Assembly: GCA_029204225.1 (NCBI GenBank)
Contig: CM055100.1
Span: 34,772,645 to 34,836,644 of the forward strand
Length of the DNA: 64,000 bases
Source of the DNA: Diphasiastrum complanatum
Taxonomy: Eukaryota; Streptophyta; Lycopodiopsida; Lycopodiales; Lycopodiaceae
Direction: 5' to 3'
Of the stretch, positions 2,778 through 50,553 are shown piece after piece. A model generated the notes under the pieces. It saw only the letters and a list, made by a program, of their open reading frames with translations, was not told the origin of the DNA and did no database searches. Position numbers and translations under genes: made by a program. Within the stretch, counting starts at the first letter, position 1, and each line of letters opens with the position of its first letter.

Positions 2778-2789
2778 TGGTATCAGAGC
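2778..2789 (+). other. Primer-binding site (initiator Met-tRNA type)
   Basis: TGGTATCAGAGC directly abuts the 5' LTR end. This is the usual complement of the 3' end of plant initiator methionine tRNA, used to prime minus-strand synthesis in copia elements. Confidence 0.9.
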
Positions 2790-5953: not shown

Positions 5954-6016
5954 GGTATCTCATTCACTTCTTATGCTTTATCTAGTTTTGAAGAACCGTC
6001 TAATGTTGAAGATGCA

Positions 6017-7531: not shown

Positions 7532-7536
7532 ATAGT

Positions 7537-7545
7537 GAGGAGGAG
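7537..7545 (+). other. Polypurine tract of element A
   Basis: GAGGAGGAG directly precedes the TG of the 3' LTR at 7546. This is the expected primer position for plus-strand DNA synthesis and fixes the true LTR start as TGTTAAAA. Confidence 0.8.
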
Positions 7546-9844: not shown

Positions 9845-10526
9845 TGTTAAAAATTCACAGTTCTAGCTTGACTAGTTTTGGTCATATGACTTGTAAATAG
9901 TTAGATGGTCATGATGTGGCTTGTCACACGTGCCAAATAGCATAGGATTCCATTCATAAGGATGTTCTCAAGTAGACCTAAGTGTTAGAACCTTTGGAAT
10001 GAGTCCAAATTATGCTTAGATACAAGGGAGAAAAAATAGGAGCTATTTTTGGTAATTTTTGCATTGTTGAGGGATCTCCAAGATTCCAACCCTAACTTGG
10101 TAGTGATGAAAGATCCACCAAAATTAGCATTAGGGATAGGTTTAGGGCTACTCATACCTGCCCAAAACCGTGATGGATCATGTATATATAGGTGATGATA
10201 TCTCACCAAAATCAATCAAGCAATTTCATGTTTTTTTTCTCATAATGGTGCAATTGCTCTCTATGTTCATAATTGTTTGAGTACTTGTGATTACTAATGA
10301 TTATAGGATTGAATGTAGGTCTGGTGTACAGTACTCAGACTATGGGAGGCCGTACTTTCACACGTGTGAAGCCTTCTTCAAGGATTTGGGCCATTTAGTG
10401 AGGTTCAAGCATAGATTTTTGATGGATTTTGATGGTTCAACTTGTGCTAATCTTATGAAATCATAATCTATTGTTTTCCTCATCATTTCAAGTGTTTTAG
10501 GATCCTTATTTGCTATAATTTTTACA
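9845..10526 (+). repeat. 5' LTR of element B
   Basis: 682 bp, TGTTAAAA...TTTTTACA. Contains GTATATATAGG near 10183 as a probable TATA box and the palindrome TTTCACACGTGTGAA at 10356-10370. Confidence 0.93.
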
Positions 10527-10538
10527 TGGTATCAGAGC
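10527..10538 (+). other. Primer-binding site of element B
   Basis: TGGTATCAGAGC immediately follows the LTR end, as in element A. Confidence 0.9.
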
Positions 10539-11336
10539 CTAAAGGCTGAAATGAGGTAAATCCTTGGTTTTCATTCAATTTGATCACAATTTTTGATCTA
10601 AATCTTGTGTAGATTGGATCTTAGCATCTAGTATTGATTCTAGAACTCAAAGTGAGTCAAATACATTGGAGATTGGTGTTGTGTGACTTCATTTGCAGGT
10701 GTTTAGGTGTCTAAAACCAGAGGCAAAGTTGAATTCAATTCACATTACCAAGATAGCAAGTTTTGCTTGCTCCAAGCATTGATTTCTAAGCGAGTTTTGG
10801 AGGTGATTTCATAGAGGAGGCTTTCTAGCATTCAAGGAGAGGGAAGATCAGAGTTTTGGGGATTCTTCAAGGCTGTTCTAAGGTGTAGTAGACACCTCCT
10901 AAAGTGATTTAGGTTCAGTCTAACCATTGCTTGACTTATGCACCAAATTAGATCAATTTTTCATCAATTTTGATCATTTTTTGCTTGTGATTGGATAGTA
11001 TATTGTGTTGCATCCTCATTAAGTTCCATTTAGATCTTTTACAAGTGATTTTGGAAGTATATTAGGTTGCTGAAATTCACTCTTGATCAGATCATTTGGA
11101 AGCTTTAATGTTCTTTATAGAAAGAGGGGCAATTCTACTAGTATTGTCTACTTCAATCAAGCAAGTGCATTGTTTCTAGTATTCTATGATTTGATTTTGT
11201 TAGAGATCATTCTTAGATCTTTATAGGAAGTCTTCACTGATCTTTTCAGGTCCCTAAGAACTGGGATAAGATAGATCTTCAATCAAATCAATAGAAGTAA
11301 CCTTCATTTGTGTCAAGTCCTTGATTAGGAGACTAG

Positions 11337-12171
11337 ATGGCATCTATAAATGCATATCTTTTGGATACTAATGAAAGGCTCAACAAAACTAACTATTCCA
11401 TATGGAAAGTTAGAATGGAATCTATCATGATCATGCAAAAAATTGTAAATGGTAAGGAGGGTGAACCTATTCATCCTCAAGAAAAAGCCAAATACATCAA
11501 GAGGTGCAATGTTGCACTACATTGCATAAAAATGAATGTTGCAAATGAACTCTTAAGAGAGTTAGGAGATTGCACTTCAGCTCAAGATGCTTGGGAGACT
11601 TTGCAAAAGGTCTATGAATCCAAGAACCAAACTAGAATGTTAGCTTTGAAGAATTAAATCTATAGAAGCTATCAAAAGAAAGGAGAGAGTGCACATACTT
11701 TTGTCCTAAGAGTAAAGGAATTGAACAAAGAGCTAGCCTTTATAGGTGACCCTATCAAGGATGAAGAGCTTGTTCAACTCATATTGAATGGACTAAGCTT
11801 TGAATTTGACAATTTGGTTCAGGGATATGTAATTATGGGTAAGCTACCCATACTTGAAGAACTCCAAGGCACACTCATGGCCGAGGAATCAAGAAGGAGC
11901 CAAATGCAAGAGAGGACGGATAGGCTTTCCATCCAAGGTGGAGATGACCAAGCTCTCTTCACCAAAGGCAAAGGCAAGTCCAAAGGTAAAGGATCAACAT
12001 TCAAGAAGTCTACAAAGCTTGAGGATCAAGAAGGACCCCCAAAGGCATCTCCATCAACCACCAAAGTCAAGAAGGACAAATCAAAGGTGAAGTGCTACTA
12101 TTGTAGCAAGATGGGGCATTATGCCTCGGAATGCTTCAAGAGGAAGCAAGATCAAAGCCAAGCCAACATGA
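11337..12171 (+). pseudogene. Element B gag with a stop codon
   Basis: Gag starts at ATG 11337 and is open to a TAA at 11655-11657, where element A has a sense CAA, so a single C-to-T change truncates it. The same frame continues (ATG 11721 is the next internal Met) through a lysine-rich segment to a complete zinc knuckle, CYYCSKMGHYASEC, around 12092-12133. Compared with element A there is a short in-frame loss near 11438. The capsid core and nucleocapsid motif are otherwise intact. Confidence 0.88.
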
Positions 12172-13696
12172 GCAAAGAGGAGGAGGAGGAGAGTTCACAT
12201 GAGGACTCTCTCATGATGTCCATATTTTCTTCAACAAGCTTCAAAGGAGAAGATCCTTGGTGGATTGACTCGGGTGCTAGTTCACACATGACTAGTAAAA
12301 GGGAGTTTTTCTCTTCTCTCTTATCTTATGATGGACCTATAAAGTCTATCTATACAGCACATGATGAAGCTTGTAAGATTGAAGGAGTTGGTAGCATTCC
12401 CCTTTGCTTAGGATCTTCCAAAAAGATCAACATAGAAGGTGTTTTGTACATTCCTACAATAACAAAGAATCTACTAAGTGTTGGCCAAATGGTAGACAAT
12501 GGTTTCAATGTTGACTTTGCTTCAAATGAATGTTTCATCAAGAATAAGGGTAAGATAGTGGCTAAGGGCACTAGACTTGGCAAACTTTATAAGCTGGATG
12601 CATTTGTGGATACTAATGTTGTCATGTTGGCCGAGAAGAGCAAATATCTACCTTTACTTTATGGCACAAAAGACTTGGACATGTCAACTCGGGTTCCATG
12701 GAGGCTATGATCAAGGAGGAGTATGCTTTAGGCCTACCAAGGTCTATTGGGAAGGAAGACAAGGTTTGTGAAGCTTGTGCCTTATCCAAGGCACATAAGA
12801 AGGTGTTTCCTAACTCCATCACAAAGTCATCTCATCCTCTTGAACTCATACACTCGGATGTGCACATTGCTAGCACCAAATCTAATGGAGGTTCATCCAT
12901 GTTTTTAACCTTCATTGATGACTACTCAAGATATTGTTGGGTGTTCTTACTTTCCTTCAAGTCTCAAGTATTTGATACTTTTGTAAAGTTCAAGTTGTTT
13001 GTGGAAAAGCATCATAATCATAGCATCAAGATTCTTAGAAGTGACAATGGTGGAGAATTCATCTCCAATGAGTTCAAGGCCTTTTGTGAGGAGGAAGGGA
13101 TCAAGAAAGAGACTTCTTGTCCTTACACTCCTCAACAAAATGGAGTTGCTGAAAGAAGGAATAGAACATTATGTGAATGTTCTAAGGCTTTAAGATTAGA
13201 TGCTTGTTTGCCCAAATCCTTTTGGGGTGAGTCTCTTGTATGTGCAAACTACTTGATGAATAGGGTGTCTTGCAAAGCAATTGAAGGCAAAACTCCTTAT
13301 GAGATGTTGTATGGAAAGAAACCCAATCTTAATCACTTGAAAGTTTTTGGGTGTATATGTTATGTGCATGTGCCATTGGAAACAAGAACCAAGGAGGATC
13401 CATCTTCCACAAGAGGGATCATGCTTGGATATGCAAGCTCAAGCAAGGGCTACAAAGTCTATCTCCCATCCTTGAACAAATTTGTTGTTTCAAGGGATGT
13501 CATCTTTGATGAACATCATATGCTTGAAGAAGGCTCAAGTGCTCCAACAATCAAGAAGAAGATGGCCGAGGAGCAAGATCTTGGTTTTGAGGAGGAGCTC
13601 ATGGAGGAGCAAGCACCAAACCCACCTATCACACCAAGGAGATCTTCAAGGGCAAAAGTGGAGCCATCAAGGCTCACATATCAAGGCAAAGGATAG
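12172..13696 (+). pseudogene. Element B protease and integrase
   Basis: The gag frame runs straight into protease (WWIDSGASSHMTS near 12259). It is then lost by a one-base deletion near 12642, where element A reads AGCAAGATATC and B reads AGCAAATATC. The pol frame continues from 12698 with the integrase core (RSDNGGEF near 13037, GVAERRNRTL near 13144) and ends at TAG 13694-13696 in the linker before RT. Both lesions are point-like, so all domains remain recognisable. Confidence 0.88.
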
Positions 13697-13768
13697 CAAG
13701 TTGAGGGTATCTCATCCACTTCTTATGCTTTATCTAGTTTTGAAGAACCGTCTAATGTTGAAGATGCA

Positions 13769-15289
13769 TTGAACTCCAAAGAATGGTATAAAGCTATGTT
13801 GGATGAGTATGATGCCTTGATTGAGAATGAAACTTGGTTGCTTGTTGAGAGACCTCAAAGGAATGTAATAGGATGCAAGTGGGTCGTCAAGCTTAAGTTG
13901 AATGCAAATGGGAGTGTTAACAAACATAAAGCAAGATTAGTTGCAAAAGGTTATGCTCAAGAGAGAGGGATAGACTATGAGGAAACTTTTGCACCCGTGG
14001 CCAAGATGGTCACAATAAGGCCAATCATTGCACTTGCATCACATTTTGGATGGATTCTATGTCAAATGGATGTATCTAATGCTTTCTTGAATGGTTTTTT
14101 GGAAGAAGATATCTATATGGAGCAGCCACAAGGGTTCATCAAGCATGGAATGGAGAACAAAGTATGCCATCTCCAAAGAAGCATCTATGGCTTGAAGCAA
14201 GCCTCGAGATCTTGGAATTCAAGACTACATTGCCATCTTATTTCACTTTCTTTTGTTCAAAGTGAATATGATCCCACTCTTTACATTAAGTTTGATGATG
14301 TTGGTATTGTACTTTTACTCATTTATGTAGATGACATCATCATTAGTGGAAATAGTGTTGATGGTATTGAAAAAATCAAGATAGATCTATCCTTAGAGTT
14401 CAAGATGGTAGATCTAGGGTGTCTTCACTTCATCTTAGGCATAGAAGTACTTAGAGGGTCTGATTTTATCTTTATAAGTCAAGTAAACTATGCTCAAAGT
14501 CTTTTGAAGAAGTTTAATATGGAAGTATGCAAAAGTGTTGACACACCAATGGAGCAAGATGTAAAAGTGCCAAGTGAAGATGATGAAAGATCCTTCATGG
14601 ACATCACTTTGTTTAGGCAACTTATAGGTTCCTTAATGTGGATCACTATAACTAGACCAGATCTTAGCTTTAGTGTATGTAGGTTGAGCCAATCCATGCA
14701 AAAGCCATTGAATATCCATTGGAAAAAGGCTAAGAGGATTCTAAGATACATCTCGGGTACATTGGATTTTGGGATTCTATATAGAGGAGATGTGATTAAC
14801 CTTCATGCATTTAGTGATTCAGATTTTGCAGGGGACAAGAGGGATAGGAAATCAACAAGTGCCTATTCAACTTTCATAGGAGAAGGTGTGGTTTCATGGC
14901 TTTCAAAAAAGCAAGAAACTATATCTCTATCTTCAACCGAGGCCGAGTACAAAGCTTTGACAACCACTACAAAGGAGTTACTTTGGATCAAGAGATTATT
15001 GGTGGAACTAAAGATCATGGATTCAGAGGAGGCACCAATCATCTACAATGACAATATATCAGCCCAACACCTTGCATCTAACCCAATCTTCCATGCAAGT
15101 TCTAAGCACATTGAGATATGCCATCACTTTGTGAGAGAAATGGTGCAAGCCAAGGAGATTGCTTTGGAGCATGTTCCAAGCAATGAATGTGTAGCTGATC
15201 TACTTACTAAACCACTTCAAAAGACACCTTTTATGAAGTTCATATCATCACTTGGAGTGATTAGTAAAGCAATGATTGAACCAAGCTAG
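13769..15289 (+). CDS. Element B reverse transcriptase-RNase H (intact 506 codons)
   Basis: An uninterrupted frame covering the whole copia RT and RNase H. Motifs in order are WVVKLKLNANGSVNKHKARL near residue 34, QMDVSNAFLNG near 99, YGLKQASRSW near 140, the catalytic YVDD at residues 186-189, then the RNase H residues SDSDFAGD and STEAEYKAL and the terminal HIEICHHFVREM. The ATG at 13769 is an internal methionine of pol, because in a working element this is part of a polyprotein cleaved by protease. The upstream TAG at 13694 now separates it from integrase. Confidence 0.9.
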   Translation: MNSKEWYKAMLDEYDALIENETWLLVERPQRNVIGCKWVVKLKLNANGSVNKHKARLVAKGYAQERGIDYEETFAPVAKMVTIRPIIALASHFGWILCQMDVSNAFLNGFLEEDIYMEQPQGFIKHGMENKVCHLQRSIYGLKQASRSWNSRLHCHLISLSFVQSEYDPTLYIKFDDVGIVLLLIYVDDIIISGNSVDGIEKIKIDLSLEFKMVDLGCLHFILGIEVLRGSDFIFISQVNYAQSLLKKFNMEVCKSVDTPMEQDVKVPSEDDERSFMDITLFRQLIGSLMWITITRPDLSFSVCRLSQSMQKPLNIHWKKAKRILRYISGTLDFGILYRGDVINLHAFSDSDFAGDKRDRKSTSAYSTFIGEGVVSWLSKKQETISLSSTEAEYKALTTTTKELLWIKRLLVELKIMDSEEAPIIYNDNISAQHLASNPIFHASSKHIEICHHFVREMVQAKEIALEHVPSNECVADLLTKPLQKTPFMKFISSLGVISKAMIEPS

Positions 15290-15294
15290 ATAGT

Positions 15295-15303
15295 GAGGAG
15301 GAG
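15295..15303 (+). other. Polypurine tract of element B
   Basis: GAGGAGGAG directly before the 3' LTR, identical to the tract of element A. Confidence 0.8.
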
Positions 15304-15985
15304 TGTTAAAAATTCACAATTCTAGCTTGACTAGTTTTGGTCATATGACTTGTAAATAGTTAGATGGTCATGATGTGGCTTGTCACACGTGCAAAATAGC
15401 ATAGGATTCCATTCATAAGGATGTTCTCAAGTAGACCTAAGTGTTAGAACCTTTGGAATGAGTCCAAATTATGCTTAGATACAAGGGAGAAAAAATAGGA
15501 GCTATTTTTGGTAATTTTTGCATTGTTGAGGGATCTCCAAGATTCCAACCCTAACTTGGTAGGGATGAAAGATCCACCAAAATTAGCATTAGGGATAGGT
15601 TTAGGGCTACTCATACCTGCCCAAAACCGTGATGGATCATGTATATATAGGTGATGATATCTCACCAAAATCAATCAAGCAATTTCATGTTTTTTCTCTC
15701 ATAATGGTGCAATTGCTCTCTATGTTCATAATTGTTTGAGTACTTGTGATTACTAATGATTATAGGATTGAATGTAGGTCTGGTGTACAGTACTCAGACT
15801 GTGGGAGGCCGTACTTTCACACGTGTGAAGTCTTCTTCAAGGATTTGGGCCATTTAGTGAGGTTCAAGCATAGATTTTTGATGGATTTTGATGGTTCAAC
15901 TTGTGCTAATCTTATGAAATCATAATCTATTGTTTTCCTCATCATTTCAAGTGTTTTAGGATTCTTATTTGCTGTAATTTTTACA
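15304..15985 (+). repeat. 3' LTR of element B
   Basis: 682 bp, ending TTTTTACA and followed by the right ATCCT duplication. Palindrome TTTCACACGTGTGAA at 15815-15829. Confidence 0.93.
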
Positions 15986-17239: not shown

Positions 17240-17385
17240 GAGCTCAAGCATCCTCATTTGCTAATCACTCTTGCTTATGTTATTGTTGTGATTGCTTGTT
17301 ATTGTCATTTTCCATGCTTTTTGGTTTATGCTAGTTAAGGTTTTTCCTTGAGTAATGACATTGAGCATTTGAGCTAACCTCCATC

Positions 17386-17389
<4 letters not shown>

Positions 17390-17482
<93 letters not shown>

Positions 17483-24149: not shown

Positions 24150-24803
24150 TGTGAAGGATTTCAGATCATTCAAGATCCAATCCATGTCCCAAATCTTTGG
24201 TTACAATAAGGAGCAAACCAACAATCCTGCCAATGTAGAAAAATCAGCATCTACATACAAAATGAGATGCAAACTCTAAGAGATATTGATCAAACATGAA
24301 CCAGAACATAAAATATGTTTGATGTCCGTACAATTATAGTATCCTGCTGTATTTCACACGTGTGGAACTGAAAATAACAATAAATGATCATTCTACACAT
24401 AGAATTGCAAGATAACACCAAGATAGTGCACCAATGAGTAGTAGAACCCAAAGAGAACCATGTATACTGATGAAATGAGAGATAGAAGAGAGAAGATGTG
24501 TCTCTCCACGAGCTACATCATTTTATAGAGTTTCCAAACCCTATTTGGCCATTTGGCTTTCCCTCCAAAATGTAAACCCTACTTTTTTTGGGTCTAGATT
24601 CAATGTACCCAAAGTTCAAATTTGAATCTCTCTCAAACTCGACTACCAACTTTCCCACACTTTCCAAAAGTGTTTATTGAATTTATTTTAAACTAATATA
24701 ACTTCAAAAAGTTTATCTCTAAATCTAAAATAAGTTTTGGCCTCTTATTGACAATTTACCAAAATGTGACTAAACTAGATTAAACTAGTTGAAATCTCTC
24801 ACA
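24150..24803 (-). repeat. 3' LTR of element C
   Basis: 654 bp. The adjacent reverse-strand purine tract GAAGAGGGAG (24804-24813) marks its internal edge. Contains TTTCACACGTGTGGAA near 24352-24367 and, on the minus strand, a CTATAAAATG TATA-like box near 24526-24535. Confidence 0.9.
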
Positions 24804-25569
24804 CTCCCTCTTCAACTAGTTTTGGCATAGTTTTGACAATAGAACTTTGATCCAACTTTAGAATGATCTCCATCCTAAGTATAGATCTTCTTTCTAAGGT
24901 TCTAAAGTATCTTTCATAATTGATATAGAAAATAGTGTCCAAATTGGATGCTTCACTATTTCTTACATCAATTTTGCACATCAAGATATAACTGGAACAT
25001 GAATAACCAAATAGAATGTGAATGAAATGATTCCTCCATGTTTCAAACTTTGTACTCTCTGGAAAATTACAGCAACCAAACAATAAATGTGAGTGATGAC
25101 CATTTGCTTGCTTGTGTCCTCCAACTTTGTCCTTTCTTGATATGTCTCCACCATAAAACTCCATGAATGAGCCTCCATCTCCATCTTGCCACAAGAAACC
25201 ATCAAACATTGAAAATCCATGAGTAGGTGAGTACATTAATGATGCAAATCCAGCACCACATGACTCCATAAACCAAGTAGGTTGCACTAGTCCATCTTCA
25301 AGATCTACTTGACACAAGAAAATGACCATGAATTCACCAAAAATTGACAATCTCCAAGTATTGGCACCAAGTAGCTCAACACTTGAGAACTTGATCATGG
25401 ATGAGTGATATAATGAGCCTCCATTAGCCTCATTTCCATCAGCAAAACCAGCCAAGAATGCTAGCACAACTCCAACAATAAGATATTGCAAGACAATGTA
25501 GCTAGTTTGTCCATATCTTGACAATTTGCACACATCCACATGAAATAGCTCAAACATGAGATAGAACAA
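24804..25569 (-). pseudogene. Element C terminal pol-like frame
   Basis: A 256-residue open frame whose last residues (KTMPKLVEEGV) match the end of the element D polyprotein (KTMLKL..NVEEGV). Its start (VCKLSRYGQTS) resembles the D segment VGKLSQFMQDP, which lies just before RNase H. Between these anchors similarity is weak and RNase H catalytic motifs are absent. It reads as a strongly altered RNase H region that has kept its ends. Function unlikely, but the open frame is notable. Confidence 0.55.
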
Positions 25570-25632
25570 GTAAAGTAAACTTGAACAACACTTCCTTGCT
25601 GATCCTTTGACCTTACTTGAGTCTTCAATAAG

Positions 25633-26610
25633 CTACAAAAACATATCCATAACATCTTTGCCAAATAACCTTCCTTTGATGCTCTTGACTAGCTCCAAAT
25701 TGCCACCTTTTCTTTTGTGTCGTTGAAGCCCTTTGAGACCAACCTCTTGATCTTCCTCTTGACCATCAAAGTCATTGAACAGACTTTGTTTTCCAAATCC
25801 ATTACTTGCTTTTCCAGTATGAAAACCATAAGAACCAATATCCACTTGCATAGCATCATCTACACAAGAAAATTCTCCAAAACATGTGAGTAAAGCAAAG
25901 TGAGTTGCTTCCACTTGCTTACCTTTCTCTTGATCATCAAAGATATCAAAGATATGAATATCTTCAGACCTGAACCTCTGGAAAAACTCCCTCTCAAACA
26001 TATGATCTAGATCCAACAAGTTCTCATCAATGCTTGATCTTGATCTTCCACAAAGGTTAGTGAAAACAATGTCACCAATGTCACCATCACAAATCAAAAG
26101 ATAGATATCAAACTTTCCATCCAACATGAAGTAGAGTAGGTGAATATGAGTATCAAACCTAACAAATCCAGCCCTCTTGAGTCCATAACAAACCTCAATA
26201 ATCTCACCAATGAGATCTCCCTTGTCTTGAAGAAATTGCCTCTCGATTTGCTCCATGTAGTCTTCTCCAACCAACCTTTTGCCATCTCGATCATGAGTGA
26301 TCAATTCACAATCATAGAATCCTTTGAGTTGATGAAGAGATGTGAGATCCACGCCTTGGATCTTCCCAAGAACCAATCTTCCATTGCTCTTTCCTTCATA
26401 AGACTCCCTCTTAATGATTGCATTATAAGAAGTAGAAACCTCAAAAACATTAGAAGCCATGAAAAAAATGATTAGTACCTTCAACATAAGAATGAATGAA
26501 GTACTCTCTTTTTTCAAACAAGAACTTCTACACAATGTTTTACGTAATGACTCATATGATAATGATTCTTCCTCACTATCATTCACAATGACATCATTCA
26601 AAGTACATCC
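25633..26610 (-). pseudogene. Element C pol-like frame with scrambled RT pieces
   Basis: An open frame continuing, across the D insertion, from 33421-32802. It contains GEDYMEQIE near 26260 and DIYLLICDGDIGDIV near 26090, which resemble EEDIYMEQPE and the YVDD block of element D, but the catalytic pair is not preserved. Further on it reads EKGKQVEATHFALLTCFGEF near 25920, which matches EKGKQVVDNSNFAFLTSFDE of D. In D that peptide comes before RT, whereas here it comes after. Order and catalytic residues are therefore both changed. Confidence 0.55.
26606..26610. other. Target-site duplication CATCC (left) of element D
   Basis: CATCC abuts element D and recurs exactly at 32802-32806. Removing D restores an open reading frame in element C. 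Confidence 0.93.
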
Positions 26611-27265
26611 TGTGAAAATTGTCAACATTTCCTAGCTAGTTTGAGGCCTAAATTGGCTAAAATTGTAAATAGTTTTGGTTCTGGAGTTTCACACATGTGA
26701 ACCAGGCCACAATGTTTTTATTTACTGTATTTTTTCAGTATGATGAAGTGTCAAACTTCATACCCTTCAAAATGAGACCATTTTGATGTATTTTGGTCAT
26801 ATAAGCCATTTTTAGCTATTTTTCCTATATAGGGAATATCTAGGGTCAAGTACCTTCTAGAGAGAGGAGAGAGAGTCATCTTCCTCATCCATAAATAGTA
26901 GGGAAGTCGTGGAGAACAGGTTGGAGAAACCTTTTGTATGCTTCATTGAGATCAATAGATCATTGTCATTGTTTCTTCCTCCATTGAGAGCATTGTTGTG
27001 TGTATTGTCTTCAAGCTATTGTGTATGATCTTAGGTGCTTTCCAAAAGTGATAGGCTGATGTATTATGGACTGTATAATGCTATTTTGGGCCGCACTTGA
27101 TGTTTATGGAAGTTTCCATTTGTGATAAATGCTTTTTGATCAAGTTCTTTGCATTCTAGGTAGCATAGAATGTGTTGCCAATTCCTAGCTTATGTAGTTT
27201 GGAGTGCAAGCATTCAAGCCAATGATCTTGGAGTTTAGATCCACTTAGGATCTGTATTTTTCACA
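26611..27265 (+). repeat. 5' LTR of element D
   Basis: 655 bp from TGTGAAAATTG to TTTTTCACA. CTATATAGGG near 26826 is a TATA candidate. The palindrome near 26687 reads TTTCACACATGTGAA here and TTTCACACGTGTGAA in the 3' copy. Confidence 0.93.
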
Positions 27266-27277
27266 TGGTATCAGAGC
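27266..27277 (+). other. Primer-binding site of element D
   Basis: TGGTATCAGAGC directly after the LTR. Confidence 0.9.
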
Positions 27278-28437
27278 TGGTTGGCTTCTATTTACAGTAA
27301 GTATTCCATTTTTGGTGATATTTGGATGTTTGATCAAGTTCTAGCATGATTTTGCATTGCTTTGTTGATCAAATCTTACTAACCTTTGTTTTGTGAGTTG
27401 AACTTGTGGATCAAAAGCATATTTCAGGTCTATTGAAGATCAGAGGCTGAAAAGAAACTATTTTGGATCAGATCATAACACCTAATCATTTGTGATTGTG
27501 AGGCTTGTGCATATTCAATACTAACAATGTTCTTTTCAATCCTATTGTTGACAATCTCCATTCTTGGATGAACACTCTCCTTAAGTGGATGAAACTTCTC
27601 CTTAAGTGGATGACAAATGCTCTTTTGAGTGAGTTGTAATTCTCCTAAAGGCTGAGCAAAGCTCCCATTTGGATGAAAGATCCCCTTTTTTGGGTGAACA
27701 TATTGTAAGCTCCATTGTGAAGAGCATATTGTAAAGATTGTCATCAATTTTGGCATAAATTTTGGTGTACTTTGTTGAGCATGTAAGTAACTCTCCTTAT
27801 GTAATTTGATTGGAGCATTTGCTGGAAGGTGTTAACCATTATGCAAGTGTGTTTTCAGGTTCTTAACAGGTTGAGGAACATTCTCATGTGAAGTGATCTT
27901 AGATCTACATCTAAACACCAAGATTTGACAAGATAGTGAAGCTAGTCTTGTGATTCACTAAGTGTGCTCATTCATTCACCTCTAAATCTTGTATTTATCA
28001 CTTGCTGGAGTTTATAAACTTTTAGAAGTGTGGTTTACATGTGGTTTTACAGGTTGAATCAATATCTTAGTGTGTTGATCATATGTTGATCAAGTTTGTT
28101 CATTACTAGGTAATCTTGGCATCCTAGTTTTGGGTATTTTCTAAGAATGCAAGTAACTCTTCACACCATAACTTGATTTGGTCACTTGCTGGAAAGTTTG
28201 AGAGCTTAAGCAAGAGTGTGTTCAGGTTGGTTTGATTTTGTAATCCATTCTTAGTGTGTGCAAAGTGTTGCATGTGTTTCAATCTTCCTTTCTATGCTTG
28301 GAAACCATCTAGGTTCAAGATAGAAGTGTTTTAGGGTCCTAAATCTTCATAGATCTCTTTATCTATCATTTGTTGAGAGAAAAGTGAGTGCTAAGTGCTT
28401 TAGGACAGAACCTAAAAGTTGAAGAAACATTAGAATC

Positions 28438-31400
28438 ATGGCTTCCAATGGTGGGATCATGCTAGAGTCTAGTGAAAGGTTGAGTTCATCAAACTACTCT
28501 ACTTGGAAAGTGAGGATGGAGTCCTTACTTGAGTTGAATGAACTCATGGACATAGTTGCAGAAATTGAAGAGAGACCTCTCACACTTCAAGAGCAACAAA
28601 GGTTTGATAAGAAGGCCAAAAGGGCTCTTCATATCATTAAAATGAATGTTACAAATGAACTTCTCAAGGAAGTTGGAAAGTGTCAAAGTGCAAGTGAGGC
28701 ATGGAATGCCTTAAAGAAGCTCTTTGAATCAAAGTCCACATCTAGGGTATTGACCCTAAGGAGACAAATATTTTCTAGTAGGCAAAGAGAGGGTGAAAGT
28801 GCTCATGCATTTATCTTGAGAGTTAAGTCCCTAAGTGATGATTTAGCATGCATTGATGAGAACATAAAAGATGGTGAAATAGTCCAAGTTATGTTGAATG
28901 GTTTGCTAAATGAACATGCTAACCTTGTGCAAAGTTTTGCCATTCAAAGAGTCTTGCCAAGTGTGGTTGACTTGCAAGAAATCTTATTGGCTGAAGAACA
29001 TAGGTTGCAATCAAAGCTTGATGGTGCATCCTTGCAAGGTGGAGGTGAAGAGGCTTTCTTCACAAAAGGCAAATTCAAGGGCAAAGGTAAAGGCAAAGGG
29101 AAATGGTCCAAAGGTGGTAACTTTGATCATGATGATCACTCTTCCTCTTCCTCTTCTACTAAGAACAATAAGTCAAAGTTCAAGTGCTTTTATTGTGGGA
29201 TAAAAGGTCATTTTGCAAATGAATGTTATAAGAAGAAAAGAGAGCAAGGAGAGAGGCAAGGAAATCTTACAATAGATGAGGAAGAACATAACACATGTGA
29301 ATCACTTGTTATGACTTCAAGTTTGTTAGCCAACATAGATGATAATGATCCTTGGTGGATTGATGTGGAGTTCATTGGAGATGCATGTTTGATAAGTAAA
29401 TGTGGATCCTTGATTGCTCAAGGTAGGAGGCATGGTAAACTTTTCAAGCTTGATGCATGTGTGATCTCTAATCATGAAGGATGTATGGCTAGGGAGCAAT
29501 TGACAAACCAAGAAGTTTGGCACAAGAGGTTGGGCCATCCCAACTTCAAATCTTTGGAGGTAATGGCAAAGAAAGAGCTTGTTCTTGGTCTCCCTAAAAG
29601 TCTTGTTGCAAACAATAGTGTTTGTGAACATTGTGCCTTGTCCAAATCTCATAGACTTGCTTATTCTAGATCTACTTCTAGATCTAAAGAAGCTTTTCAA
29701 CTTGTGCATTCTGATATTCATTCTTCTAGTACAACTAGCAATGGTGGGGCAAAGATGTATGCAACTTTCATTGATGACTTTAGTAGGTATACTTGGATCT
29801 ATCTTCTTAAAAGTAAGGATGAAGTGTTTGCTGCATTTGTCAAGTTCAAGAATGAAATGGAAAACCAATTCAATACAAAGATCAAATGCTTAAGATCTGA
29901 TAATGGAGGGGAATACACCTCAAATAGGTTCAAAGACTTTTGTATAGCACATGGGATTAAGAGGGAGATGTCTAGTCCTAGGACTCCACAACAGAATGGA
30001 GTGGCCGAGAGGAAGAATAGAACCCTTTGTGAATGTGCCAAGGCAATGAGACTACATGCTAATCTTGCTAAGTCTTTTTGGGGGGAAGCTTTAGCATGTG
30101 CTAACTATCTATGTAATAGATGGACAAGTGCTTCCTTGGATGGTAAAACTCCTCATGAGGTTCTTTATGGTAGAAGGCCGAGTGTCAAGCATTGTAGGAT
30201 CTTTGGATGTACATGTTTTGTCAATATCACACTTGATGATAGAACTAAAGAAGATCCTTCATCAAAGAAGGGTGTGTTTGTTGGCTATAGTGAAGTAAGC
30301 AAGGCTTACAAAGTGTACATTCCTTCTACAAAGAAAGTTGTCATAAGTAGGGATGTCATCTTTCATGAAGAGAATGTTTCCAATGTTGTTGATGTTGATG
30401 TTGATGTGCCTACTAATCATCATGATGTGCAAGATGTCTTGGATGAAGATGGAGATGCCACTCCAAAGCAAACTTCAAGGAAGACTCAAAGGCAAAGGGC
30501 TAAGCCATCAAGGCTAACCTATCATGAAAAAGGAAAGCAAGTGGTGGACAACTCTAACTTTGCTTTTCTTACCTCTTTTGATGAACCAACTTGTGTAGGT
30601 GAAGCAATTCAAAAGAAGGAATGGATCCAAGCCATGGATCATGAGCATCAAGCACTCATCAAAAGCAACACATGGAGGTTGGTAAAGCTTCCAAAGGACA
30701 AGAAGGCAATTGGTTGTAAGTGGATCTTCAAGATCAAGACAAATCAAGATGGATCAATCAACAAGTACAAGGCAAGGTTGGTGGCAAAGGGGTATGCTCA
30801 AGAATATGGTATTGACTATGATGAGACCTTTGCACCCGTGGCAAAGATGGTAACTATTCGAATCCTAATCTCTCTTGCAACTCTTTATGATTGGGATATG
30901 TGGCAAATGGATGTTACTAATGCCTTCTTGAATGGTGATCTTGAAGAAGATATTTACATGGAGCAACCCGAGGGCTATGTTTCACATGATGAGCCTAATC
31001 ATGTGTGCTATCTCCAAAAGAGTTTGTATGGGCTAAAGCAAGCACCAAGGAGTTGGTATGCTAAGCTCAATTCCTTCTTACTTTCTCAAAACTTTGTTAT
31101 GAGTGAGTATGATCATTCTCTCTACTTTAGATTGAATGAAAATGATATCACTTTACTTTTGATCTATGTTGATGACATTATCTTAAGTGGTGGTAACAAT
31201 CTAGATATAGATGAAATCAAGATGGCACTCAAAAGAGAGTTTGAAATTCAAGATCTTGGTAAACTTCATTATATCTTAGGAATAGAGATTATTAGAACTT
31301 CTAAATCTACATTCATATGTCAAGAAAAGTATGTTAACTCTATTCTAAAAAGGTTTCATATGGAAGATTGTAAAGTTGTTTCTACTCCTATGGAATCAAA

Positions 31401-32151
31401 TGTAAAGCTAACTACAAGAAGTAATGAAAGATCCTTCAAGGACATTACTCTCTATAGAAAGCTAATAGGATCTCTTATATGGTTAACCATCACAAGACCT
31501 GATCTAAGCTTTGTGGTTGGTAAACTAAGTCAATTTATGCAAGATCCTAGTGAGGCTCATTGGAAGCTAGGAAAGAGAGTACTTAGATACATCTCGGGAT
31601 CTAGAGATTTTGGCATCTTGTATGGAGGTACTACACCTAACCTTTGTGGATTTTCAGATTCAGATTTTGCAGGTGATCAAATGGATAGGAAGTCAACAAG
31701 TGCCTTTGCAATCTATCTTGGAGATGGAGTGGTCTCATGGCTATCAAAGAAGCAACCAACTATCTCTCTATCTTCCACCGAAGCCGAGTACAAGGCATTA
31801 ACAACATGCACCAAGGAGATTCTTTGGATCAAGAGGATGTTATTGGATCTTCACTTGCTGGAACCAGAGAAGACTCCAATCATACTTTGTGATAACCTTT
31901 CAGCCCAAAGCTTGGCAAGCAATCCTGTTTTTCATGCAAGGAGCAAGCACATTGAGATTGCTCACCATTTTGTGAGAGATCAAGTCATTGCCAAAGAGGT
32001 GGAGCTTCAACATGTCTCTTCAAAGGAGTGTGTGGCTGATATCTTCACCAAACCATTGGGAAAGGACCTATATTTAATGCATAGATCTAATCTTGGAATG
32101 TGCTCAAAGACTATGTTGAAACTAGCATCAAATGTTGAAGAGGGAGTGTGA
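28438..32151 (+). CDS. Element D gag-pol polyprotein (1237 aa), protease core deleted
   Basis: One uninterrupted frame. Gag capsid region covers about residues 10-200, and the zinc knuckle CFYCGIKGHFANEC is at 250-263. WWID at 306-309 is the start of protease but continues directly into VEFIGDACL, so the DSGAS site and about 84 residues present in element C are missing in frame. GAG-pre-integrase starts with WHKRLGHPN near 361. Integrase has D426, D488 and E524 (D-35-E). RT has YVDD at 910-913, and RNase H has SDSDFAGD near 1073. The ATG opens the first long frame after a leader of about 1.17 kb. Without protease the polyprotein could not be self-processed, so trans help would be needed. Confidence 0.92.
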   Translation: MASNGGIMLESSERLSSSNYSTWKVRMESLLELNELMDIVAEIEERPLTLQEQQRFDKKAKRALHIIKMNVTNELLKEVGKCQSASEAWNALKKLFESKSTSRVLTLRRQIFSSRQREGESAHAFILRVKSLSDDLACIDENIKDGEIVQVMLNGLLNEHANLVQSFAIQRVLPSVVDLQEILLAEEHRLQSKLDGASLQGGGEEAFFTKGKFKGKGKGKGKWSKGGNFDHDDHSSSSSSTKNNKSKFKCFYCGIKGHFANECYKKKREQGERQGNLTIDEEEHNTCESLVMTSSLLANIDDNDPWWIDVEFIGDACLISKCGSLIAQGRRHGKLFKLDACVISNHEGCMAREQLTNQEVWHKRLGHPNFKSLEVMAKKELVLGLPKSLVANNSVCEHCALSKSHRLAYSRSTSRSKEAFQLVHSDIHSSSTTSNGGAKMYATFIDDFSRYTWIYLLKSKDEVFAAFVKFKNEMENQFNTKIKCLRSDNGGEYTSNRFKDFCIAHGIKREMSSPRTPQQNGVAERKNRTLCECAKAMRLHANLAKSFWGEALACANYLCNRWTSASLDGKTPHEVLYGRRPSVKHCRIFGCTCFVNITLDDRTKEDPSSKKGVFVGYSEVSKAYKVYIPSTKKVVISRDVIFHEENVSNVVDVDVDVPTNHHDVQDVLDEDGDATPKQTSRKTQRQRAKPSRLTYHEKGKQVVDNSNFAFLTSFDEPTCVGEAIQKKEWIQAMDHEHQALIKSNTWRLVKLPKDKKAIGCKWIFKIKTNQDGSINKYKARLVAKGYAQEYGIDYDETFAPVAKMVTIRILISLATLYDWDMWQMDVTNAFLNGDLEEDIYMEQPEGYVSHDEPNHVCYLQKSLYGLKQAPRSWYAKLNSFLLSQNFVMSEYDHSLYFRLNENDITLLLIYVDDIILSGGNNLDIDEIKMALKREFEIQDLGKLHYILGIEIIRTSKSTFICQEKYVNSILKRFHMEDCKVVSTPMESNVKLTTRSNERSFKDITLYRKLIGSLIWLTITRPDLSFVVGKLSQFMQDPSEAHWKLGKRVLRYISGSRDFGILYGGTTPNLCGFSDSDFAGDQMDRKSTSAFAIYLGDGVVSWLSKKQPTISLSSTEAEYKALTTCTKEILWIKRMLLDLHLLEPEKTPIILCDNLSAQSLASNPVFHARSKHIEIAHHFVRDQVIAKEVELQHVSSKECVADIFTKPLGKDLYLMHRSNLGMCSKTMLKLASNVEEGV
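32138..32146 (+). other. Polypurine tract of element D
   Basis: GAAGAGGGAG-type purines immediately before the 3' LTR, overlapping the last codons of gag-pol (VEEGV, stop). Confidence 0.8.
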
Positions 32152-32801
32152 AAATTGTCAACATTTCCTAGCTAGTTTGAGGCCTAAATTGGCTAAAATT
32201 GTAAATAGTTTTGGTTCTGGAGTTTCACACGTGTGAACCAGGCCACAATGTTTTTATTTACTGTATTTTTTCAGTATGATGAAGTGTCAAACTTCATACC
32301 CTTCAAAATGAGACCATTTTGATGTATTTTGGTCATATAAGCCATTTTTAGCTATTTTTCCTATATAGGGAATATCTAGGGTCAAGTACCTTCTAGAGAG
32401 AGGAGAGAGAGTCATCTTCCTCATCCATAAATAGTAGGGAAGTCGTGGAAAACAGGTTGGAGAAACCTTTTGTATGCTTCATTGAGATCAATAGATCATT
32501 GTCATTGTTTCTTCCTCCATTGAGAGCATTGTTGTGTGTATTGTCTTCAAGCTATTGTGTATGATCTTAGGTGCTTTCCAAAAGTGATAGGCTGATGTAT
32601 TATGGACTGTATAATGCTATTTTGGGCCGCACTTGATGTTTATGGAAGTTTCCATTTGTGATAAATGCTTTTTGATCAAGTTCTTTGCATTCTAGGTAGC
32701 ATAGAATGTGTTGCCAATTCCTAGCTTATGTAGTTTGGAGTGCAAGCATTCAAGCCAATGATCTTGGAGTTTAGATCCACTTAGGATCTGTATTTTTCAC
32801 A
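32147..32801 (+). repeat. 3' LTR of element D
   Basis: 655 bp, identical to the 5' LTR except for two substitutions that I could see, near 32233 and 32449. Followed by the right CATCC. Confidence 0.93.
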
Positions 32802-33421
32802 CATCCTACTTTGAACTCTTCACATGCTTCTCTTCTTCTTGAATTGTGACTATCTTCCTCACCAAGTCTCTTGATAGAACCATTTGATCTACTCTCTTTA
32901 TGAAGACATGTGACTCCACTTGCTGGAAAAATGACTTTCTTGGAATCATAACAAAAGAATGTAGAAGAACCAACTCCTTCATGCATGCATCTAGCAACAT
33001 CCTTTTCCATATGATCAAAGAAATCATTAACAACAATCTTTTCCAAAGGAAGAACCTTCACCTCCATTGATGAAGTTAGCTCTTTCCTTACCTTTTGCAT
33101 GCTTGCACTTGCCATGAAGAACCATTGAAACACCATCATTATCCTCAAGACTAGCCAAGTTAGCACAAAGATGAACATCTCCAAGAAGCATATTAGATCT
33201 TGACCTAGATCTAGCATAAGGAATCTTGTTAGACTTTGCATAAGATCCACCGATCTTATTGATGCTAAAAGGTAACTTGGGAAGATTGAGACCAATCTCC
33301 TTTTCCATTCCATCCTTTTTGTTAGCCATAACAGAAGAATCAAGCTTGAAAAGTCTACCTTGTTTATTGCCCCTAGCAACCAAGATTTCTTCCTTTGTAA
33401 TGAAGCAAGCATCACCATCAA
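32802..33421 (-). pseudogene. Element C pol-like frame, upstream part
   Basis: This open frame overlaps the end of the gag-protease frame in another register and continues past 33027 with LEKIVVNDFFDHMEKDVARC down to FKVGC at the D insertion. It is in frame with 26610-25633 on the far side of D. I see no integrase or RT motif in this part. It may result from a frameshift within a decayed pol. Confidence 0.5.
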
Positions 33422-34451
33422 ACTTTACCATGTATCCTTTCTCTATCATTTGACCAACACTTAGCAAATTCTTTGAAAGTGAAGGAATGTAAAGAACACC
33501 ATCAAGTCTTGCTTTCCTATCAGTAGAGAGACAAATAGGAATTGAACCAATACCTTCAATCACACACTCGCCACCATTGGCCATGTGAATTGCTTTCTTG
33601 GCTCCATCATAAGTGACCAAAGAAGTAAAGAACTCCTTGTGACTAGTCATGTGTGAGCTAGCTCCACTATCAATCCACCATGAATCTTTGTGACCTTCAG
33701 TTGATATTGGACTTGAAGAACACATCAAAAGAGAATCACCACCACCTAGATCCTCATCATTAGTAGTAAAGTTGATTTGCTTGCTACCTTCATCTCTTTG
33801 CTTCTTCAAACATTCATTTGCAAAATGCCCTTTGATTTCACAATAAAAGCATTTTAACTTAGACTTATCTTTCTTTTTGCCAAAAGAGAAAGTCTCACCT
33901 TGATCTTGACCTTTAGACCACTTGCATTTGCCTTTGCCCTTGAACTTGCCTTTGATGAACATAGCATCCTCTTCATAATGAGATGTCGATGTAGATCCAC
34001 CTCCTCTTGATTGAAGCCTATACTCCTCATTCACCAAGATCTCTTGCAAATCCACAATACTTGGCAAAGTGTTTTGAATAGCAAAACTTTGAACAAGATT
34101 AGCATGATCATCCAACAAGCCATTAAGTATAACTTGAACAAGCTCTACCTCCTTAATGCTTTCATCAATACATGCTAACTCATCATTGAATGCCTTAACC
34201 CTCAAAACAAAAGCATGACTACTCTCTTCCTTATTTTGCAAACTTTGAAAGATTTGCCTCCTAAGAGTAAGCACTCTCTTGTCATACCTCACTTGATCTT
34301 GTTGAGTTGCTGGTATCTCCTCCAAACCTACAACAATCTCCATCAACTCATCCATCTCCAATAAGGACTCCATCCTCACCTTCCAAGTAGAATAATTGAT
34401 TGAGGTAAGCCTATCATTGCTCTTCAACATAAATCCACCACTTGTAGCCAT
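33027..34451 (-). CDS. Element C gag-protease frame (474 codons)
   Basis: ATG at 34451 opens a copia gag (MATSGGFMLKSNDRL, NYSTWKVRMESLLEMDEL). About 50 residues of the capsid core are missing after RYDK, where it jumps to VLTLRRQIFQS. The zinc knuckle CFYCEIKGHFANEC and a complete protease signature, WWIDSGASSHMTS, follow. Then the frame drifts: IGLNLPK, KSNKIPYARSRSRSN and LGDVH recall the GAG-pre-integrase and integrase start of element D (LGLPK, KSHRLAYSRSTSRSK, HSDIH) but lack the HHCC finger and the first catalytic aspartate. It ends at GKDCC. It looks like a non-autonomous gag-protease element. Confidence 0.8.
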   Translation of the reverse strand: MATSGGFMLKSNDRLTSINYSTWKVRMESLLEMDELMEIVVGLEEIPATQQDQVRYDKRVLTLRRQIFQSLQNKEESSHAFVLRVKAFNDELACIDESIKEVELVQVILNGLLDDHANLVQSFAIQNTLPSIVDLQEILVNEEYRLQSRGGGSTSTSHYEEDAMFIKGKFKGKGKCKWSKGQDQGETFSFGKKKDKSKLKCFYCEIKGHFANECLKKQRDEGSKQINFTTNDEDLGGGDSLLMCSSSPISTEGHKDSWWIDSGASSHMTSHKEFFTSLVTYDGAKKAIHMANGGECVIEGIGSIPICLSTDRKARLDGVLYIPSLSKNLLSVGQMIEKGYMVKFDGDACFITKEEILVARGNKQGRLFKLDSSVMANKKDGMEKEIGLNLPKLPFSINKIGGSYAKSNKIPYARSRSRSNMLLGDVHLCANLASLEDNDGVSMVLHGKCKHAKGKERANFINGGEGSSFGKDCC

Positions 34452-35041
34452 GTTGAAGTGACCTGATATTCTCTTTCAACCTGTTCCAATGCACAAAGCA
34501 CTCTCTTAAATGTCAAAAAATAAACTCAAGAAGAAATCACAAAGATATGGAACCTCTCAAATCTCTTCTAGCACTTTTAACTAGAAAATCAACACATAGA
34601 ATAGTGAAATCTTGATCAACCTATGATCTATCCTCAATCTAATGATTCTTGCCACTTCCTAAAATTGAAACACACCCAAATGAAGTTCAGTAATCTCACA
34701 AACTAGAGATCCAATCAAAATTAGGGTTTTGACAAAATTACAAAAAATTGAATATCTCAAATTCTACATGCAATTTCTAGAAACTTGGTATATCTTCTTG
34801 TAGACTCCAATGAGACCTTTCTAATGCACCAAAAATCATGTAAATCCAGTAAACCAAGTGTGAAATCGGAATTGATCAAGTATCTAACCCTATATTGAGT
34901 TTTGAACTACAAAATCATCTAATTCTACACATGCAAAATGTTGATTTCTAAGTAGAGATCAATCTAGCATGCTCTAGCATTGGTAACTCCTCCAAATCCT
35001 TGCTAAAGATGGTTGATCCTTTCATAACCTGAAACACAAGA

Positions 35042-35053
35042 GCTCTAATACCA
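35042..35053 (-). other. Primer-binding site of element C (one mismatch)
   Basis: The reverse strand reads TGGTATTAGAGC next to the 5' LTR. One base differs from the usual Met-tRNA site of the other elements. Confidence 0.75.
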
Positions 35054-35707
35054 TGTGAAGGATTTCAGATCATTCAAGATCCAATCCATGTCCCAAATCT
35101 TTGGTTACAATAAGGAGCAAATCAACAATCCTGCCAATGTAGAAAAATCAGCATCTACGTACAAAATGAGATGCAAACTCTAAGAGATATTGATCAAACA
35201 TGAACCAAAACATAAAATATGTTTGCTGTCCATACAATTACAGTACCCTACTGTATTTCACACGTGTGGAACCGAAAATAACAATAAATGATCATTCTAC
35301 ACATAGAATTGCAAGATAACACCAAGATAGTGCACCAATGAGTAGTAGAACCCAAAGAGAACCATGTATAATGATGAAATGAGAGATAGAAGAGAGAAGA
35401 TGTGTCTCTCCACGAGCTACATCCTTTTACAGAGTTTCCAAACCCTATTTGGCCATTTGGCTTTCCCTCCAAAATGTAAACCCTATTATTTTTGGGTCTA
35501 GATTCAATGTACCCAAAGTTCAAATTTGAATCTCTCTCAAACTCGACTACCAACTTTCTCACACTTTTAAAAAGTGTTTATTGAATGTATTTTAAACTAA
35601 TATAACTTCAAAAATTTTATCTCTAAATCTAAAATGAGTTTTGGCCTCTTATTGACAATTTACCAAAATGTGACTAAACTAGAAAAAACTAGTTGAAATC
35701 TCTCACA
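35054..35707 (-). repeat. 5' LTR of element C
   Basis: 654 bp, TGTGAAGGAT...CTCTCACA on the plus strand, matching 24150-24803 with scattered substitutions. Contains TTTCACACGTGTGGAA at about 35257-35272. Confidence 0.9.

Positions 35708-36824: not shown

Positions 36825-36830
<6 letters not shown>

Positions 36831-36884
<54 letters not shown>
36831..36884. repeat. (CT)27 microsatellite
   Basis: Perfect CT dinucleotide run directly beyond the breakpoint of the truncated unknown gene. Confidence 0.97.
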
Positions 36885-36887
<3 letters not shown>

Positions 36888-36984
36888 TTGCCATCCCTTT
36901 TCCCTCACCTCTCTACCGTCCGCACGCGACCACGCCTCTTCTTTGCGTAAAATCATTTTTTTCTTTTTCATGGAATAAAAGGAG

Positions 36985-47161: not shown

Positions 47162-48770
47162 ATGACTCTTGAGAAGGCAATAACCGAGATCAAGGAGGAG
47201 GTAGAAGCAAGAGAGCTCTATGATGATATACAAGCTCTATATAGCAACAAAAATCAACGCAAGAATAAGCCTAATCCTAAGAGGGAGTCATCTCAAGATC
47301 AGATCGAAGTCAGTAGAAAGAAGACGACAAAGAAGGAAGATCAAAGACACCTACCAAGCACAAACCGCAAGGTGGAGACAAGAAATCTTGCATAAGATGC
47401 AGATGCGACAGACATACCGTTGACACATGGTTGAATCCAAAGATTGAGTGCATACATTGTCATAAGAAAGGCCATGTATCCATGGATTTCTATCAAAGTC
47501 CAAGGAATAAGAAGACACAAAGCAAGAAGGAGACCTCCAATAGCTCATCGTATGAAGAGGAGCCAAAGTCCTCGAAGATGGCTGAGGAGAGAGCAAGCAA
47601 CAATCCATCCACTTACCTATGCATTGATGCATGCAATGCATCTCAAGCGGATACGCAAGAAGTAAGCTATGTCACACTTTGTGACCACGAAGCATATAAT
47701 TGTTGATTACCGTTAGATGGATTCCTCTAGATACATCATTCTAGGAGATGGATCAAACGACACCAAGTAAGTGGACTGGGCCAGCTATGGCTGTATGCCA
47801 ACAACAGAGATAGGAAGCTTGACGATGTGCTATATGTCCCAACGCTTCAAAGGATCTATAATCTGTCGCGAAGTTGGTAGATGCAAGGCATGAGCCTCAC
47901 CTTTGTAGATGACTCATGTGAGGTAACTGAAGCAAACAACGCTACATTATCACGCAAGGCAAGCGCAAAGGCAACTTGAATCATTTGAAGATACGCGTTC
48001 CAACTGAACAGGCACACCAAATCCATGAGTCCACAGACATTCTATGGCACAAAAGGCTATGTCATACTAGTACAATGGCTTTATAGAAGGCTAGTTATAA
48101 TGGAGTATTCACCGGTGCAAGCATCAAAGATGCAAAGTTGGTAGCTAAAGGTTTCTCACAGAAGTATGGCGTTGACTACACCAAAACCTTTTCTCTAGTT
48201 GTCAAGCATACCTCCATATGTTTGTTGATCGCATATGCAGCAGCATACAACTTGAATATCCACATTGTGGATGAGAAGACTGCATTCCTACATGGAGAAC
48301 TCAAGAAGGAGCTCTACATGGATCAGCCACCAGGTTTTATGTGTGAATCATTCTCTGATTACGCATGCATGATGCACAAAAGCATCTACGGATTGAAACA
48401 GTATGTCAGATAATGGTATAAGAAAAAGGATCATGCTCTAAGATCCTTAGGCTTCCAACCTTTGATAGCTAATTACAATGTCTATGTAAAGGTCATGCAT
48501 GGAGAGATCATCATAGTCGGTGTCTACGTAGATGACACACTCATCATATCAAGGAGCGATGACTTGATTGCACAAGTAAAGCAAGATATCTCCAAGCACT
48601 TTGAGATATCAGACCTGGGTAAAGCACAATGCTACCTAGGATATGAAATCGATCGAGTCCTTGAGAATAGTAGACTGTATGTGCACCAATCGAGGTATAC
48701 TCAAAGGGTCATTAATGATTTTCAGGTGATTGAATGTAACGGAGTCACACTCCGATGGTTGCAGACACAG
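47162..48770 (+). pseudogene. Copia relic (gag end, GAG-pre-integrase, RT), integrase missing
   Basis: 47162-47706 holds a lysine-rich gag tail with a zinc knuckle whose last cysteine is replaced (CIHCHKKGHVSMDF). Decayed protease-region sequence follows, then DILWHKRLCHTSTMAL near 48035. This passes within about 80 bases into the RT motif LVAKGFSQKYGVDYTKTFS at 48138. The whole integrase is therefore absent. RT continues with AFLHGELKKELYMDQPPGF and SIYGLKQYV, then in 48462-48929 VYVDDTLII and ISDLGKAQCYLGYEI. The frame runs into the GA microsatellite at 48774, and RNase H is lost. Sequence differs clearly from elements A to D, so this is another copia lineage. Confidence 0.82.

Positions 48771-50553
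<1,783 letters not shown>

Follow-up and report, generated by a model that had tools for sequence, protein, structure and literature searches.

Element C, a copia-type long terminal repeat (LTR) retrotransposon, lies on the minus strand of a 64,000-nucleotide stretch of the Diphasiastrum complanatum genome (contig CM055100.1, positions 34,772,645 to 34,836,644 of the forward strand; hereafter 'the window', to which coordinates refer). It belongs to a high-copy family whose intact members encode Gag and protease and, in the same frame, a long region, X, where remnants of copia pol stand in permuted order and YVDD has become YDGD. The open, dead pol is a trait of the whole family and not of a single decaying copy. 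Our preferred reading, to which we give a probability of about 0.7, is that C represents a semi-autonomous copia-type Gag-protease family that keeps a dead, permuted pol in frame and would be moved in trans by elements like D, the copia element nested inside the window copy. The initial annotation had described the pol of this one copy as reordered, catalytically dead and still open; the description holds, and it extends to the family.

The C family and its open frame

The window copy bears the marks of Ty1/copia elements: LTRs, a primer binding site (PBS), a polypurine tract (PPT), a 5-bp target duplication, and copia-type Gag and protease. Its 5' LTR (654 bp, 35054 to 35707) and 3' LTR (24150 to 24803) are 96.6% identical, with 22 differences and a Kimura two-parameter (K2P) distance of 0.0345, which corresponds to an age of about 1.3 million years (My) at an assumed rate of 1.3e-8. 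The PBS (35036 to 35053, minus strand), which begins TGGTATTAGAGCT, is presumably that of tRNA-Met. The flanks of the element, TGATT and TGATC, are one base apart.

The frame for Gag, a CCHC knuckle and protease (33027 to 34451, minus strand; 474 codons as it stands) matches Pfam Pol_BBD at 3e-25 and a gag family weakly. The gag of this copy is not intact, because it has a 132-nucleotide deletion at about 34277/34278 and a one-nucleotide frameshift, placed approximately at 33047, between the protease frame and that of X. Both are private to the window copy: in all ten copies aligned from gag to X (L052 and copies without the 24804-26610 region being excluded) the deletion is absent and the extra base has no counterpart. 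The 'intact gag-protease' of the initial annotation is found in the family, where Gag, knuckle and protease are recognised, and not in the window.

Region X begins with an integrase-side part (32802 to 33047, minus strand, open in frame 0) and is interrupted by element D (26611 to 32801, plus strand), whose LTRs (26611-27265 and 32147-32801) are 99.7% alike and whose open reading frame (ORF) runs from 28438 to 32151. As previously proposed, the C frame is open across the insertion site: D is bounded by copies of the target site CATCC, and beyond it orf1 (25636 to 26610, 325 codons) resumes in register. An in-frame stop (25633 to 25635), present also in three of the 12 other copies carrying this region (L037, L038 and L050), separates orf1 from orf2 (24805 to 25632, 276 codons), and the long frame ends at 24799 on a stop codon provided by the start of the 3' LTR.

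Copies were sought throughout the source assembly (1.745 Gb). The C LTR gave 4354 first-look candidates, the best 40 of which were scored and comprise the window's own LTR and 39 others at about 97%; orf1 gave 12,600, with 123 scored (the window's included). These candidates are not confirmed copies, and the 123 are best matches, some of which look like duplicated contigs; 90 of them have no internal stop in orf1. Among 20 stretches fetched around LTR matches, three contain the LTR only and five the LTR and the 5' part only, while in 12 the 24804-26610 region is present and, deletions aside, runs collinear with the window copy. None of these 12 has an ordinary pol in the normal order; such copies would have spoken against the reordering.

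Two of the copies, L036 and L047, have a single frame from ATG to stop, extending from gag to the 3' LTR over 1193 and 1195 codons, and a third, L066, picked later from a group of equal scores, has a single frame of 1195 codons. In these intact copies the frame terminates just inside the 3' LTR. Four more (L061, L062, L063 and L064), picked for their long open frames, reach 1065, 1084, 1115 and 1138 codons. When gag-protease matches were scored genome-wide (90 copies, the window's included), 48 had open frames of 1086 to 1203 codons, 18 of them 1203, the length at which L047 and L066 appear in this scoring. An in-frame deletion of 174 nucleotides in orf2 defines a subfamily (L035, L037, L050, L052 and others; seven of 22 rows compared with L047), and genomic frames that stay open for about 1145 and 1088 codons may be forms with this deletion.

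Insertions are recent. LTR divergence places ten C copies between 0.14 and 1.05 My at the same assumed rate, a range that extends to 1.33 My with the window copy. The 5-bp target duplication is exact in three of the four copies with both flanks readable and off by one base in the fourth.

Openness of region X and selection on it

How unusual is such an open frame? From 24804 to 26610 the window copy has one stop in 602 codons (frame 0), and X of L036, L047 and L066 has none. Markov-shuffled versions of the window segment (two kinds, 2000 each) had on average 33.5 and 21.3 stops in their best frame, with minima of 21 and 10. Neutral decay of D pol over 537 codons, simulated with D as the assumed ancestor (60 runs per identity level, substitutions only), left a mean of 24.0 stops at 40% identity and 27.7 at 30%, with a minimum of 13; decay to 60% identity left 15.4, with a minimum of 4. 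As had been suspected from the window alone, neutral decay would have left far more stops in X, and C does not have the pattern of an ordinary decayed copia element, with stops and frameshifts across pol at the neutral rate.

Codon-position bias in orf1 (G of 0.094 per codon) is comparable to that of the C gag-protease (0.109); in orf2 it is weaker and inside the null range. C and D are 64% identical in gag (242 aligned codons) and 36% in the RT palm (RT, reverse transcriptase; 114 codons), compared with 48% in gag and 62% in pol between D and element B, another copia element of the window; the order of conservation is therefore reversed in C. Pairwise dN/dS between C and D (gag 0.264/1.714, palm 0.683/1.981) was saturated and left unused.

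Variants were counted among 22 copies on L047 columns (kappa 2.88), the near-duplicates L046 and L060 being dropped, as was L057 (the same copy as L037), and L066 added. For variants found in at least two copies, the ratio of nonsynonymous to synonymous polymorphism (pN/pS) was 0.82 in gag, 0.59 in protease, 1.32 in the integrase remnant, 0.57 in orf1 and 1.72 in orf2; for singletons the values were 1.01, 1.40, 0.89, 1.63 and 1.42, respectively. The two classes differ significantly in orf1 only, among these five regions (60 nonsynonymous and 37 synonymous shared variants versus 129 and 28 singletons; p = 0.0006, or 0.003 when corrected for five regions), in a test where variants are not independent events and which the high singleton value of orf1 aids. 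Earlier counts had the same direction (0.58 with 15 copies; 0.60 with 22 copies, near-duplicate L060 kept). The RT-derived third of X shows modest purifying selection. As to indels, counted in 23 alignment rows with the window copy entered as two pieces, all three shared ones in X are multiples of three, versus three of 18 singletons; in gag-protease the figures are one of one and five of 14.

Several observations weigh against our reading. For X overall the difference reaches only p = 0.044, orf2 and the integrase remnant are without protein-level constraint, and Gag itself is only weakly constrained in the sample. Stops in X are common to at least two copies at codon 918 (four copies, the window's included), at codon 803 (two copies) and at codon 1057 (a pair of near-duplicates, 99.8% identical), which suggests that elements have spread despite a stop in X; in gag-protease, none of eight stops is common to more than one copy.

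Selection on orf1 raises the possibility, which we hold tentatively, that the RT-derived part of X has been neofunctionalised into a working non-catalytic protein, which could be, for instance, a domain with a structural or RNA-binding role in the particle or a dead subunit that pairs with an autonomous RT. This is compatible with our preferred reading and extends it: the family might have turned its own RT into a non-catalytic, domain-permuted tail of Gag-protease, translated, kept by selection and serving the particle or the RT of its partner, although we would not put the odds of this high. The purifying signal and the codon bias retained in orf1 argue in this direction, as do the motifs compared in 17 to 20 copies, where most residues are invariant or have a single exception (YGLKRAG, varying at five of seven places, stands apart). 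However, a pN/pS of 0.57 is modest and comes from a single sample of close copies, while the singleton value of orf1 is itself high. Single-sequence structure predictions for orf1 and X had no confidence (pLDDT of 32.5 and 31.1) and were unused for fold searching, and there is no fold or family match to suggest such a protein.

We consider it rather unlikely that X is a functionless relic, open only because the sampled copies go back to a small number of recent master elements that were open by chance. Such a founder effect would agree with the 95-99.8% identity of the sampled copies, with the many gag-protease matches of identical score, with the free drift of orf2 and with the existence of shared stops. 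However, a relic as diverged from D as this one is expected to hold about 24 to 28 stops in 537 codons, whereas the intact copies hold none; the shared indels of X stay in frame, the shared variants of orf1 are poor in replacements, and its codon-position bias is near that of gag-protease.

Traces of pol in region X

Scanned against Pfam, the intact proteins of L036 and L047 have Gag and Pol_BBD above cut-offs (in L047, Retrotran_gag_2 at 4e-21 and Pol_BBD at 6e-25); the zinc knuckle exceeds its cut-off in L036 only and falls just under it in L047. We read the Pol_BBD match as protease, of which we take the DSGA motif to be a mark. The same scan found no integrase, RT or RNase H family in either ORF. 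Because these families are lacking, the palm precedes the linker and the YVDD site reads YDGD, C is a derivative and not an autonomous copia element.

The palm-derived block occupies residues 87-206 of orf1 (25993 to 26352, minus strand). It includes the former YVDD motif (26080 to 26091), which is CDGD in the window copy and YDGD in the family, with Y in 19 of 20 copies and the last D in 17 of 18; the ICDGDI first noticed there is real, with a C that, of 20 copies, only the window's has. The linker block, EKGKQ...DDAMQ (25846 to 25929), lies downstream of the palm in C and aligns to residues 697-725 of D, upstream of the palm. A tentative fingers-derived block follows (25636 to 25845): in global alignment its score was reached by none of 1000 shuffles against L002, a reference described below, and by 192 against D and 347 against B.

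In the window copy, the global score of the RT-like block with residues 805-936 of D was reached by none of 1000 shuffles, by one against B and by none against L002, for block boundaries picked from the search itself. When whole orf1 was compared with whole D pol (3000 shuffles of each of two kinds), the palm score was matched by one and two shuffles and that of the linker by none and one. In L047, residues 684-798 align with D residues 810-936 (E of 5e-4, none of 300 shuffles as good) and residues 820-847 with D residues 697-725 (E of 9e-4, one of 300); the palm also outscores all 300 shuffles against B2, L001 and L002.

At the DNA level, where the best of 40 codon-shuffled control runs scored 30.0 bits, five stretches in X of L047 exceed this score in their match to D, three clearly and two barely. 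The clear ones are the linker (ORF nucleotides 2453-2541 with D 2084-2175; 55 bits, E of 3e-10), the palm (2251-2310 with D 2683-2742; 39 bits, E of 2e-5) and a stretch at 1345-1388 (D 1207-1250; 39 bits). Palm and linker are in inverted order relative to D, confirming in an intact copy that the EKGKQ block comes after the RT-like block, and both are found again in L036 (E of 2e-4 and 9e-9, respectively). The barely significant ones are 3423-3463 (D 2979-3019; 32 bits) and the extreme C-terminus (3493-3588 with D 3623-3714; 33 bits). The C-terminal resemblance to D claimed earlier, seen in the last residues of orf2, is thus present in L047; in L036 it is reduced to the last 18 nucleotides and 30 bits, no better than the best control.

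Other results count against these identifications. The protein matches of palm and linker are weak, and a broader copia profile does worse, with 10 of 400 shuffles equalling the palm and 8 and 19 of 400 the fingers block. The profile, built from 14-16 pols, is less sensitive than D alone, and its scores are unreliable because the unrelated tail of gag-protease beat all 400 shuffles on the fingers profile. Although orf2 stands at the expected place of RNase H, it is not significantly RNase H-like over its length, and a reversed control did better (3 versus 8 of 500 shuffles as good). Traces of an SH3 domain and an integrase core in the X frame were not significant.

X has no family match in Pfam or PDB, as might be expected if pol had been replaced by a captured host or foreign coding sequence; we consider this very improbable, since the same five stretches match D pol DNA above control (55, 39 and 39 bits clearly, 33 and 32 barely). 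That the RT-like and linker matches arose by chance, with no reordering, is the least probable explanation: protein E values of only 5e-4 to 9e-4, a linker score reached by one in 300 shuffles and poor profile support would allow it, and the DNA-level E values in two copies and the palm's advantage over all 300 shuffles against D, B2, L001 and L002 contradict it.

A search for X in IMG/VR and GTDB genomes confirmed nothing. Copia-type pol itself is encoded by three 'plasmids' of 4.6-5.4 kb from soil- or plant-associated actinobacteria, L001 (NZ_CP115302.1), L002 (NZ_CP115454.1) and L003 (NC_015657.1), which are likely plant retrotransposon DNA, perhaps circles, within bacterial assemblies. Copia pol is also encoded by 11 contigs in bacterial genome records (L004-L014), probably eukaryotic contamination.

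Proposed supply in trans and comparison with known elements

The window copy of D is 0.12 My old by its LTRs and has a private protease deletion near 29360. Among 37 scored copies of its family, the other 36 each have a single frame open over 1316-1322 codons, are 99-100% identical and hold about 80 more residues where the window D lacks protease; the one read there, L065, has the protease motif WWIDSGASSHM. So many full-length open copies at such identity suggest that the family expanded in a very recent burst. It had been suggested that C, with its protease, and D could complement each other. We reject mutual protease complementation, because the loss is private to the window D and the 36 other scored copies hold the full open frame.

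Supply in one direction, from D-like elements to C, is another matter. The first 60 nucleotides of the C and D LTRs are more alike than in any of 2000 shuffles, and the last 60 are equalled in 12 of 2000. The two PBSs share 12 of their first 13 nucleotides (one mismatch), and 13 nucleotides of the PPT are identical. A D-like autonomous family would, on these sequence likenesses, be the likely supplier of RT and integrase to C. One result tells against D in particular: the LTR ends do not single it out, because those of B also resemble the ends of C more than expected by chance, if less closely than those of D (equalled in 9 and 44 of 2000 shuffles).

The window contains two further copia elements, A and the already mentioned B, at 2426-15985, each with its own LTRs; the pol of A is about 50% identical to that of D (tblastn). 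Long (GA)n tracts at 48743-49875 have the opposite orientation to CT tracts near 17376-17479 and 36826-36890.

How does C compare with known elements? TR-GAG elements, plant LTR elements encoding Gag only, do not accommodate it, since C also encodes protease and X. Polymerase domains that are permuted, as in certain viral RNA polymerases, or catalytically silent, as in the dead p51 subunit of the human immunodeficiency virus (HIV) RT, may be compared with C by analogy only. With an open Gag-protease and neither RT nor integrase, C belongs with semi-autonomous Gag-protease elements; what is new is a dead pol kept in frame and in permuted order. Among the matches listed, no published title or abstract opening describes an LTR element with a dead pol that is both permuted and open, although this does not prove that none exists.

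A close parallel is RLG_Sabrina_SA of wheat, termed 'semi-autonomous', which like C has an intact Gag-protease, no RT or integrase and a high copy number, and whose movement is ascribed to a dissimilar autonomous family that has a similar PBS and similar LTR ends; unlike C it is a Gypsy element, and the passages dealing with it describe no open pol-derived frame behind the protease (PMC9744471). RLG_Quinta, found with RLG_Cereba in einkorn centromeres, has one frame for Gag and a domain of unknown function (DUF1), has no RT or integrase and, in the passages concerned, takes its enzymes from its partner (PMC11302176). It too is Gypsy, with a DUF1 of unknown origin, whereas C retains protease and has an X partly traceable to permuted pol (PMC11302176). 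Non-autonomous RLC_Angela of wheat differs from C in a coding sequence described there as having numerous frameshifts and stops (PMC9744471). SbdRT of Chrysanthemum seticuspe is, like C, a copia case with successful non-autonomous and autonomous forms; the part of the report that presents it gives the non-autonomous insert no valid ORF, unlike C (PMC8497461).

Under our preferred reading, C RNA would be translated into one polyprotein of about 1195 residues, comprising Gag, zinc knuckle, protease and X. X would derive from a D-like pol whose enzymes were lost, with integrase reduced, the RT palm placed before the linker and perhaps before the fingers, YVDD changed to YDGD and RNase H no longer recognisable; RT and integrase would then be needed in trans. 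Lineages that transpose would keep X open, most likely because the same RNA is packaged and serves as mRNA, so that an early stop comes at a cost to it. Nonsense-mediated decay is such a cost for a stop early in a long message, and the cost here could be that or the missing full-length Gag fusion. Some selection may also act on the protein from the RT-derived part. As the reason for openness we favour selection for a translatable message.

Loss of pol in non-autonomous elements is usually attributed to deletion or plain decay. The C family separates 'staying translatable' from 'staying enzymatic', and with the intact D family it forms a copia pair within one genome. It makes it possible to test whether openness serves RNA stability, a Gag fusion or a new protein. 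The remnant of pol is mostly kept readable in the copies that spread, and may therefore still matter to them.

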